58,327 nucleotides of DNA, taken from contig QHWJ01000361.1 of assembly GCA_003222535.1 (NCBI GenBank), forward strand, positions 1-58,327, given 5' to 3'. The notes beneath the pieces are model-generated. The model did not search any database, was not told where the DNA came from, and was given only the letters and a program-made list of their open reading frames with translations. Made by a program: the position numbers and the translations under genes. Source of the DNA: Acidobacteriota bacterium (GTDB lineage Bacteria; Acidobacteriota; Vicinamibacteria; Vicinamibacterales; CAVVIG01). This document shows, one piece after another, positions 14,543-42,476 of the stretch. The number at the start of each line of letters is the position of its first letter. Position 1 is the first letter of the stretch.

Positions 14543-14698
14543 CTCTTCGTCGCCGCTCCTCTCGTCTCGCTCGCCACGACGCCTTATGCGCAATTTACGT
14601 CGGGCGTGAACCTGGTTGAGCGTGGTGGTGAACTTTCCGGGCGTCCGGGGCGGGCGCGGACCGGAGGATCGAGAGGATTTTACTTCGGGCCGTGATCC

Positions 14699-14721
14699 TT
14701 CACACGCTCTTCAGCCGGACC
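14699..14721. repeat. 23-bp dispersed element (identical to 41506-41528)
   Basis: TTCACACGCTCTTCAGCCGG plus ACC occurs identically here and at 41506-41528. Read on the minus strand here it supplies the C-terminal VRLKSV of the reductase and its stop codon. It belongs to the GTCCGGCT/AGCCGGAC palindrome family clustered at 41274-41528. Confidence 0.75.
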
Positions 14722-40624: not shown

Positions 40625-40746
40625 GATGGCAGGATTACAGGCGGTGAGATTGCAGGATTACAGAATGGCAGGATTGCAGGAAAGAAAGGCTTGAAGGCCC
40701 CTTTCGTTTCCCTTTCTGCAATCCTGCAATCCCTGAAATTCTGCAA
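40625..40746. repeat. Mirrored GCAGGATTAC / GCAATCCTGC word repeat
   Basis: The left arm (40625-40684) has GATGGCAGGATTACAGGCGG, then TGCAGGATTACAG and TGGCAGGATTGCAGG. The right arm (40711-40746) has TTTCTGCAATCCTGCAATCC and TTCTGCAATGG. The last unit contains the rimM ATG. The words recur at 42368-42476. Confidence 0.88.
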
Positions 40747-41306
40747 TGGCGGCGAAGTGGGAAGAGATGGCGCTCGTCGGGCGCGTGGCTCGCGCGCACG
40801 GGATTCACGGTCAGGTGATTGTGAACCCTGAGACCGACTTTCCGGCAGAGCGGTTCCGGCCCGGTGCCGAGCTGTTCATTGAACGCGCCGGGCGGGTCGA
40901 AGGGCTTCGCGTCACGACCGCCCGATTCCATCGGGAGCGACCGGTGATCGGGATTGACGGCATCGAGACGATGAACGATGCGGAGACGCTCGCCGGGTAC
41001 GAGCTGCGCGTGCCGATCGATCGGCTCGCGACGCTTCCGCCCGGCACTTTCTATCGGCACGACCTGATTGGGTGTCGGGTGGAAACAGGGGACGGCCGGG
41101 CGGTCGGCCTCGTCAGCGACGTCGAGGGCACGATGGCGGGCAGCCTGCTGGTGGTCGACGGCGCGGACGGCGAAGTGCTGATTCCGCTGGTGTCGCACAT
41201 CTGCACGGTCGTCGAGCCGGCCGCCAGGCGGATCGTGATCGATCCGCCTGAGGGGTTGATCGAGGTGAACGAGGTCCGGCTGAAGCCGGACACTACCGGA
41301 ACGTGA
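40746..41306 (+). CDS. rimM: Ribosome maturation factor RimM
   Basis: Binds S19 and helps 30S head maturation. The 186 residues have the N-terminal barrel (LVGRVARAHGIHGQVIVNPETDFPAERF) and the PRC-barrel (GCRVETGDGRAVGLVSDVEG, GEVLIPLV). The C-terminal VRLKPDTTGT after EGLIEVNE is not part of the family. It is translated from a GTCCGGCT/AGCCGGAC palindrome at 41274-41291. The ATG at 40746 lies in a word repeat. Confidence 0.95.
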   Translation: MAAKWEEMALVGRVARAHGIHGQVIVNPETDFPAERFRPGAELFIERAGRVEGLRVTTARFHRERPVIGIDGIETMNDAETLAGYELRVPIDRLATLPPGTFYRHDLIGCRVETGDGRAVGLVSDVEGTMAGSLLVVDGADGEVLIPLVSHICTVVEPAARRIVIDPPEGLIEVNEVRLKPDTTGT

Positions 41307-41528
41307 GAGGGCAGTAACGGTATTGCGGCTTCAGCCGGACCGTCGGCGGCATCGCACGTTGGGCGGGATCGGAACGTGAGATCGACGGTATCGGTGTCCG
41401 GCTTCAGAGCTTGTGAGGAAACACGACGTTCAACGCAGAACTCGCGGAAAACCCCTAAGCACTTTTCTCTGCGGGTTCCGCATTTTCTGCGTTGTACGTG
41501 ATTTCTTCACACGCTCTTCAGCCGGACC
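41274..41528. repeat. Cluster of GTCCGGCT...AGCCGGAC palindromes and a mirrored TCTGCG repeat
   Basis: Copies: GTCCGGCT-GA-AGCCGGAC (41274-41291, the end of rimM), GCGGCTTCAGCCGGAC (41325-41340), GTCCGGCTTCAGAGC (41396-41410), and the 23-mer at 41506-41528 identical to 14699-14721. Between them lies a mirrored repeat: CAACGCAGAACTCGCGGAAA (41431-41450) against TCTCTGCGGGTTCCGC and TTCTGCGTTG (41466-41494). No gene is seen in 41307-41537. Confidence 0.8.
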
Positions 41529-41537
41529 TTCGCTGCG

Positions 41538-42431
41538 ATGACTTTTGACATCGTCACGATCTTTCCGGCGATGATCGAGCAGCCGCTGGCGGCTGGCGTG
41601 CTCGGCCGGGCGATCGAGCGGGGCACTCTGGACGTCAAGGTTCGTGATCTGCGGGACTTCACGACCGACCGCCATCGGGTCGTGGACGACGTGCCGTATG
41701 GTGGAGGACCGGGGATGGTGCTGAAACCCGAGCCGATCTTCCGCGCGCTCGACGCGATCGAAGCCGAGCGCGGGACGCCGCTGACCGTGATCCTGACCTC
41801 GCCGCAGGGGATGCGCTTCACGCAGGTCGAGGCGCAGCGGTTGAGCGGTCTCGAGCACATCGTGCTCTTGTGCGGGCGATACGAAGGGTTCGACGATCGC
41901 GTGCGCGAGCGGGTGACCGAGGAGCTGTCGATCGGCGACTACGTGCTGACGGGCGGGGAACTGCCGGCGCTCGTCGTGCTCGACGCCGTGGCTCGCTTCG
42001 TGCCGGGCGTCGTCGGGGACGGGCAATCGGTGGCGGCAGATTCGTTCAGCCGCGGGCTGCTCGATTTTCCGCAGTTCACGCGGCCAGCGGAGATCGCGTG
42101 TCGCTCGATCGTTGAAGCCGAGCGCGACGTGGGTCGCGCGAACAGCGACGTTGGCAGCGCGAAGAGTGCGCGTGTCAGCGCGACGCGCGACGGGAGCGCG
42201 AAGGCTTCAGCCGAGCGTATGCTGAAGGTCCCCGACGTGCTGTTGTCGGGGAACCACGCGGAGATACGGCGCTGGCGGAAGCGTGAAGCGCTGATCCGGA
42301 CGCTGGATCGGCGCCCGGATCTCCTGGAGGACGCGAGCCTGGACGACGAAGAAGAGCAGATGCTTCGAGAATTGCAGGATGGCAGGATTGGAGAATTGCG
42401 GAAAGGGAAGGCGGAAGGGGACGGGTCTTAG
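41538..42431 (+). CDS. trmD: tRNA (guanine37-N1)-methyltransferase TrmD with an inserted repeat
   Basis: Methylates G37 of tRNAs, preventing frameshifts. The 297 residues show [50 protein letters not shown], the knot [21 protein letters not shown] and [18 protein letters not shown]. After RPAE (182-185) the family continues within about six residues to [10 protein letters not shown]. Here about 43 extra residues (187-229) intervene, encoded by degenerate AGCGCGAA-type repeats and a GGCTTCAGCC palindrome. The last 20 residues are translated from a GCAGGATT word repeat. Confidence 0.95.
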
Positions 42432-42476
42432 GCCCTTCCCTTCCTGCAATCCCGCCCTTCTGCAATCCTGCAATTT
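42368..42476. repeat. Mirrored GCAGGATT / CAATCCTGC word repeat
   Basis: The left arm (42368-42406, inside trmD) has TGCAGGATGGCAGGATTGGA and GAATTGCGG. The right arm (42436-42476) has CTTCCTGCAATCCCGCCCTT and CTGCAATCCTGCAATTTC. It shares its vocabulary with 40625-40746. Confidence 0.85.

Follow-up and report, generated by a model that had tools for sequence, protein, structure and literature searches.

In the window (the whole 58,327-nt stretch of DNA analysed here), the interval around the end of rimM and ahead of trmD holds one intact, one damaged and one split REP, and a MITE-like element lies inside the split copy (Table 1). The initial annotation had counted four copies of a palindrome within 255 bp at this place; in fact, the full palindrome is found in only one of them, and two are the halves of a single REP around another element. 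The intact palindrome (GTCCGGCTGAAGCCGGAC, 41274–41291) was seen in none of 100 shuffles of the window, and GTCCGGCTN{0,20}AGCCGGAC, searched as an exact pattern, has a single match in the window but none in 100 shuffles. Allowing up to 2 mismatches, the window contains 13 matches to a single arm (GCTTCAGCCGGAC), compared to 3.55 ± 1.83 in the shuffles. Searching with a weight matrix of the family (score ≥12), we obtained 41273–41296 as the sole match in the window, the damaged REP scoring under this cut-off. As had been claimed, the intact palindrome extends RimM: the protein is read through 41274–41291 and ends VRLKPDTTGT. The 23-mer CTTCACACGCTCTTCAGCCGGAC is indeed repeated exactly in the window (41505–41527), but its other copy lies at 14698–14720, one base to the left of the position first given (14699–14721). 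Both copies are the same composite of half a REP and a MITE end. The one at 14698 supplies the tail VRLKSV of a FAD-dependent reductase, which had been recognised correctly; this tail is a composite remnant, with VRLK coming from the REP half and S, V and the stop from the MITE end.

Table 1. Positions of genes, REPs and MITE-like sequences in the window
Feature	Position	Strand	Details
Half REP	14710..14720	+	TTCAGCCGGAC; source of VRLK in the reductase tail
MITE end remnant	14698..14709	+	CTTCACACGCTC; minus strand encodes the end of VRLKSV (S, V, stop TGA)
rimM	40746..41306	+	Pfam PF01782, PF24986
Intact REP with tag	41273..41296	-	core 41274-41291; tag ACTAC 41292-41296 (GTAGT on the minus strand)
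REP-encoded end of RimM	41274..41306	+	VRLKPDTTGT, then stop
Damaged REP	41320..41341	+	GTAT tag-like; left arm shortened, right arm GCCGGACC intact
Third REP, left half	41396..41406	+	GTCCGGCTTCA; loop TTCA (41403-41406) at its end
MITE-like element	41407..41516	+	110 bp; ends GAGCTTGTGAGGAAAC / ATTTCTTCACACGCTC; long internal hairpin
Third REP, right half	41517..41528	+	duplicated loop TTCA (41517-41520) and GCCGGACC
trmD	41538..42431	+	Pfam PF01746
REP of second family (B)	42194..42217	+	GAGCGCGAAGGCTTCAGCCGAGCG; within the trmD reading frame

The tRNA methyltransferase TrmD has absorbed the family-B REP, which is read in frame. The linker of TrmD that holds this REP comprises about 40 residues, more than in relatives, and is much shorter in the genome G009 (RPPEIAGAAERPLKVPDV). 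Long palindromes with a period of 8 nt (TGCAGGATTGCAGG...CCTGCAATCC) flank rimM and trmD at 40633–40747 and 42370–42475; the latter codes for a 20-residue tail of TrmD, and similar tails are present in G011 and G014. An Rfam search returned sub-threshold matches only, and nearly all of these pair the 8-nt periodic palindromes with microRNA families.

The host genome (G000; 8.06 Mb in 450 contigs, 95.5% complete) contains 129 perfect copies of GTCCGGCTNNAGCCGGAC and none of the reversed pattern. In a sample of 1.29 Mb (61 contigs, partly picked for matches), 37 of 52 copies selected on the core alone carry GTAG or GTGG at one fixed spot 5' of the stem. Together with the next base these tags read GTAG-T (18 copies), GTGG-C (13), GTGG-T (5) and GTAG-A (1), and the following base is coupled to the tag (Fisher p = 7e-6 for the first three classes); T stands after GTAG in 18/19 and C after GTGG in 13/18 copies. 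The fifth stem pair is G-C at 39, C-G at 12 and mismatched at 2 of 53 places. At a score of 14 the weight matrix gave 83 matches on both strands compared to 1 in the Markov control, and the looser cut-off of 12 gave 81 distinct places. The family REP is 23–24 nt long and consists of GTRG, one base and the hairpin GTCCGSC-TTCA-GSCGGAC. Its fully paired 7-bp stem with a TTCA or TTTA loop agrees with the rules for REPs, i.e. a fully paired stem of 7–20 bp and a loop of 2–5 nt (PMC6006769). Like GTAG-tagged REPs, it has GTAG/GTGG 0–2 nt 5' of the hairpin, a high copy number and a mainly extragenic location; the palindromes are a GTAG/GTGG-tagged REP family. Family B (GAGCGCGAAGGCTTCAGCCGAGCG) has 17 exact copies in the same 1.29 Mb, with 0 in the reversed control.

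The initial annotation had advised a search for a REP-associated transposase, and a RAYT gene is present in the genome. The Pfam Y1_Tnp search of G000 found one gene (L016:1387–1881, 164 aa; E = 9.9e-12), to which an alignment search adds two fragments. Its product combines the Y1 transposase domain with the HuH and catalytic Tyr motifs expected of a RAYT (HVH, WQ and Y...NP), and the gene is flanked by inverted family REPs at −272 (+), +309 (−) and +353 (−), the first of them being the variant GTCCGACTTCAGTCGGAC. The same layout of inverted REPs is found at the RAYTs of G013, G023, G038 and L298 (a contig of G021); the RAYT of G012 has a family REP on one side only, and next to the RAYTs of genomes without the family REP we found other GTRG hairpins or none. 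L298 (CALQBJ020000040.1), which has an Acidobacteria-type RAYT and REPs, is titled Bifidobacterium breve, a name that looks wrong. The records of the closest relatives are mostly titled Acidobacteria, several of them gp6 or Vicinamibacterales.

Among 60 relatives, the six genomes with the closest RAYT (≥268 bits; next 217) contain 57–383 REPs each, whereas the other 54 have a median of 0 and at most 131 (p = 2e-5); five of the six had seeded the alignment and been chosen partly because they are rich in REPs. In a scan across genome contigs, the family REP adjoins 10 of 13 RAYT loci at ≥52% identity vs 2 of 34 below, a line set after the table had been seen and drawn through 47 loci of which several come from the same genomes as the test on 60 relatives. 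These comparisons of sequences, rather than an observed transposition event, suggest that the RAYT is probably the copier of the REPs. Five genomes (G006, G010, G011, G022 and G047, of which G006 is 66% and G047 74% complete) contain 14–45 REPs each without any Y1_Tnp match, and G026 has 131 REPs and four RAYTs, with the family REP beside none of them; thus REP copies seem to outlast their RAYT or to arrive without it.

We located the REPs relative to genes predicted by a simple codon-usage caller (1009 genes in the G000 sample). Of 81 REPs, 42 (52%) are intergenic, compared to 17% of random positions. Gene 3' ends hold 11 (random 6%) and 5' ends 3, and the remaining 25 lie deeper inside predicted genes. 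Among the 36 classifiable intergenic REPs, 10 fall into convergent gaps and 2 into divergent gaps, which make up 15% and 24% of the intergenic bases, respectively. A similar picture was obtained for G013 (51 of 74 REPs intergenic, random 15%; 12 at 3' ends, random 7%), where the 330-kb sample comprises mostly contigs with REP matches. Neighbouring REPs ≤200 bp apart (n = 26) are arranged 8 ++, 6 +−, 6 −− and 6 −+; with no orientation bias among such pairs, and the inverted pair not being the dominant unit, we rejected a reading as REPINs. The proposal of a mobile or copied element that lands at gene ends is borne out by the repeat, the RAYT in the genome and the enrichment between genes and at 3' ends, though not in its second part, the ‘tagging’ of proteins. 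Hairpins that favour 3' ends and convergent gaps and are depleted in divergent gaps could also be ordinary intrinsic terminators or mRNA-stabilising structures, immobile and kept under selection at gene ends. The GTRG tag with its matching RAYT, the 25/81 copies well within predicted genes, the copy number of 0–383 among relatives and a rimM junction free of REPs in 20/25 genomes all speak against this explanation, which we regard as highly improbable. After insertion, REPs may have a role for the host.

How a REP ends a protein depends on frame and orientation. By our reading of the sequence, the frames of one orientation give a GPAEAG-like peptide, a VRLKPDTT-like peptide or S-G-stop, and one frame of the other orientation opens with the TAG of the tag. 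For 23 REPs at gene 3' ends, the REP supplies the stop in 18 (TAG in the tag, 8; TGA in the loop, 9; TAA in the loop, 1), in four the VRLK frame is used, and one abuts the gene's own stop. The excess of supplied stops is significant against a naive expectation of one in three (p = 1e-5), with read-through cases that run far falling outside the 3'-end class. That GTAG REPs often provide ORFs with their TAG stop has been published (PMC3733652). RAYT genes themselves show such ends: those at L173, L181, L176 and L174 end in -SG, with the stop in the loop of a downstream REP (TGA in three, TAA in one), and at L016 a REP arm directly follows the TAG stop of the RAYT.

We then counted the tails themselves, as had been suggested with the claim that the palindromes tag proteins with VRLK. 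In the 1.29-Mb sample 5 of 968 complete genes encode such a tail, and in the high-copy relative G013 0 of 283, which does not amount to a tagging system; only one frame in one orientation yields the peptide. The tail motif had 7 matches, from which C26 and C37 (both AKHVRLK) were dropped as, by our reading, a domain motif; C26 does carry a REP-like weight-matrix match, in which the tag departs from the consensus and one pair is mismatched. Two VRLK-tailed proteins in one window and five in the sample might hint at a functional C-terminal signal common to many proteins. However, all five tails overlap with REPs or REP halves, G013 has no such tail despite 3 times more perfect REPs in under half the DNA, the tail changes with the frame (VRLK, or SG and a stop), and RimM orthologues end otherwise (see below). 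A signal at the protein level has next to no probability in our view; the VRLK tails are REP read-through.

The initial annotation had named conservation of the tails at orthologous positions as the mark of a function at the protein level. We found rimM in 26 of the 27 genomes of the family, and its end and the junction could be read in 25, including G000. A family REP (score ≥12) is present at the junction in 5 of these 25 genomes and in none of the other 20. The state differs among the five: in G000 the REP is read as the VRLKPDTT tail, in G012 a degenerate REP (score 15.9) gives the tail RRMKPDVT, in G013 and G023 RimM ends in SG at a stop carried by the REP, and in G017 the REP lies past the stop in the opposite orientation. 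RimM orthologues in relatives end in EANARG, LELNA etc.; the closest relatives, G005 and G020 (RimM 76 and 79% identical), have no REP, the tail EANARG and a gap of −1. Since the junction REP is missing in 20/25 genomes, including the two closest, the RimM tail represents a local insertion and not a conserved peptide. With the tail unconserved in relatives, the reading as a protein function fails by the annotation's own measure, and the reading as an element survives. At the same rimM-trmD junction, G011 (L145) and G024 (L137) have a different periodic palindrome (ACCACAAAG...TTTGTGGT).

The sequence that splits the third REP is an element of another kind. TTCA, the REP loop, stands on both sides of the 110-bp inverted repeat 41407–41516, which is too short to hold a transposase gene and is 83% identical to its 119-bp form; element and REP halves fold as one hairpin (−42.9 kcal/mol; DNA fold z = −9.3). 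A length of 109–124 bp, the lack of a transposase gene and ends like GAGCNTGTGAARAA and its complement are those of a MITE. We read 16 copies in G000. BLAST with the 119-bp form gave matches in 14 of 27 family genomes and at ≥32 distinct places in G000, counts that are lower bounds as they derive from the best 32 candidates per genome. Full-length copies among the matches listed are 92–96% identical in G017, another genus; RimM of these two genera is 71% identical. In a phylum sample of 247 genomes (best 3 candidates per genome) at least 7 match, and the strong ones (three) belong to this family only. At L120 near 13278 (contig C105 of G000), REP-like arms enclose a much shorter palindrome that has both MITE-like ends (GAGTGTGTGAAAAAA...TTTTTTCACACGCTG).

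A further 40 high-scoring copies, 20 each from G017 and G012, were fetched by element sequence, and both ends are present in 38 of them. Among the 53 copies with both flanks, 29 show an exact 4-bp target-site duplication (24 do not), compared to 0.54% of random sites; for the copies fetched by element sequence alone the figure is 24 of 38. The duplicated 4-mers (TGAA 13, TAAA 5, TTCA 4, TTTA 4, TCAA 2, GTAA 1) are nearly all REP loops read on either strand. In three genera, the MITE has entered loops belonging to several REP families, its surrounding arms being those of the main REP family, of family B (GAGCGCGAAGGCTTCAGCCGAGCG) and of GCAGGCC and GCAGCCC stems; therefore, a single element inserts at the hairpin tips of various REP families. 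Beside the RAYTs of several phyla (47 loci), REPs often have the tip CTTCAG/CTTTAG in common and differ in their stems; this tip is the target of the MITE.

In G000, REP-like arms border 15 of 16 copies on one side or both (random 1.6%) and 9 of 15 on both (random 0.005%), figures for which the list of arms and loops was drawn up after the data had been seen, two of the copies (L155, L157) were fetched with a pattern containing a REP arm, and one copy is that of the window itself. A plain test of arm complementarity was weak (≥7/10 pairs in 5/16 vs 15% random; ≥8 pairs in 1/16 vs 2.5%), probably because the family-B REP is an imperfect palindrome, and it was replaced by the consensus arm test and then by the duplication test. 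These arms, together with the folding of the whole stretch as one hairpin, would also fit a single composite element (41396–41528) that moves as a unit and has the REP halves as its true termini. However, the arms vary by copy (GTCCGGC, GTCCGCC, GCTCGGC, GCAGGCC, GCAGCCC) around an inner element that belongs to a single family, and the 4 nt separating arm from element match REP loops and form an exact duplication in 29/53 copies, so that we consider a composite very unlikely and an insertion of the MITE into the REP loop the better account.

A putative transposase of the DDE kind may move the MITE; beside 2 PF05598 and 6 PF01609 matches in three genomes, no element with the MITE ends was found. 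The locus L286 was rejected as the site of a parent transposase, having only another MITE-like end nearby, and so was C92 (L116) as the end of a full-length IS, as the listed adjacent ORFs did not look transposase-like to us. Tentatively, and with somewhat more doubt than conviction, we picture the MITE as a hyperparasite that reads the tip of an extruded REP hairpin by its structure (a loop C-TTCA/TTTA-G carried by any GC-rich REP stem), not by a single sequence, and has recently crossed genera. If guided by structure, it could follow whatever REP families the RAYTs of a genome had made.

Taken together, we hold with high confidence that a REP family copied by a cognate RAYT, together with a MITE homing to REP loops, accounts for the locus. 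Most likely, the cognate RAYT (TnpA_REP), whose gene lies on another contig, copies the REPs in the form of single-stranded hairpins. New copies persist chiefly in intergenic DNA and at the 3' ends of genes. A REP at such a place either comes after the stop codon, provides it (as TAG of the tag or, on the opposite strand, as TGA/TAA of the loop) or is read through in a single frame, which extends the protein by a VRLKPDTT-like peptide. The non-autonomous MITE-like element of 109–124 bp targets the tip of the REP hairpin and duplicates its 4-nt loop, and one such insertion interrupted the third REP of the rimM-trmD interval. For annotators this is a warning that VRLKPDTT-like tails are REP read-through. 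In addition, a well-marked REP/RAYT pair is added for a branch of the Acidobacteria represented here by MAG records, the range of 0–383 REP copies between relatives is useful for the question of how REPs spread, and the dense set of loop insertions with many clean duplications offers material for asking whether a hairpin tip guides a transposase.

In a search limited to one paper collection, we found no report of the REP sequence, of VRLKPDTT or of a transposase-less MITE that breaks REPs across several families. REPINs are tied to RAYTs, and Rickettsia palindromic elements are palindromes read in frame inside proteins. Unlike in REPINs, no fixed inverted REP pair dominates in G000, and unlike in the Rickettsia elements, only a minority of the REP copies is read in frame. 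REPINs have been described as REP-based short mobile DNA (PMC3116915), and Rickettsia palindromic elements are named in PMC3733652. The family resembles the GTAG REPs described by Di Nocera et al. 2013 (PMC3733652) in its GTAG/GTGG 5' tag, short stem-loop, high copy number and dimers or clusters, as well as in its frequent position beside genes, the TAG stop provided by the tag and the presence of some copies within ORFs; the main text of that paper does not contain CCGGAC, and it names Acidobacterial transposases but not the REP of the window. The RAYT shares PF01797, HuH and Y...NP motifs and inverted flanking REPs of high genomic abundance with known RAYT/TnpA_REP proteins (PMC2817692, PMC6006769), from which it differs in being lineage-specific. 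Insertion sequences that target REPs are likewise known (IS1397, ISKpn1, ISPpu9/10, ISPsy8 and ISRm22; Tobes & Pareja 2006, PMC1525189), and ISRm22 breaks its REP at the axis of the palindrome with a 6-bp duplication. The MITE is similar to these in its fixed insertion point within the REP and its short duplication (PMC1525189); unlike them, it is 109–124 bp long, lacks a transposase gene, has the 4-nt loop as its duplicated target and is found in several REP families of three genera. REP/RAYT pairs and REP-breaking elements are thus known systems, and the transposase-less MITE in the loops of several REP families is the notable part.
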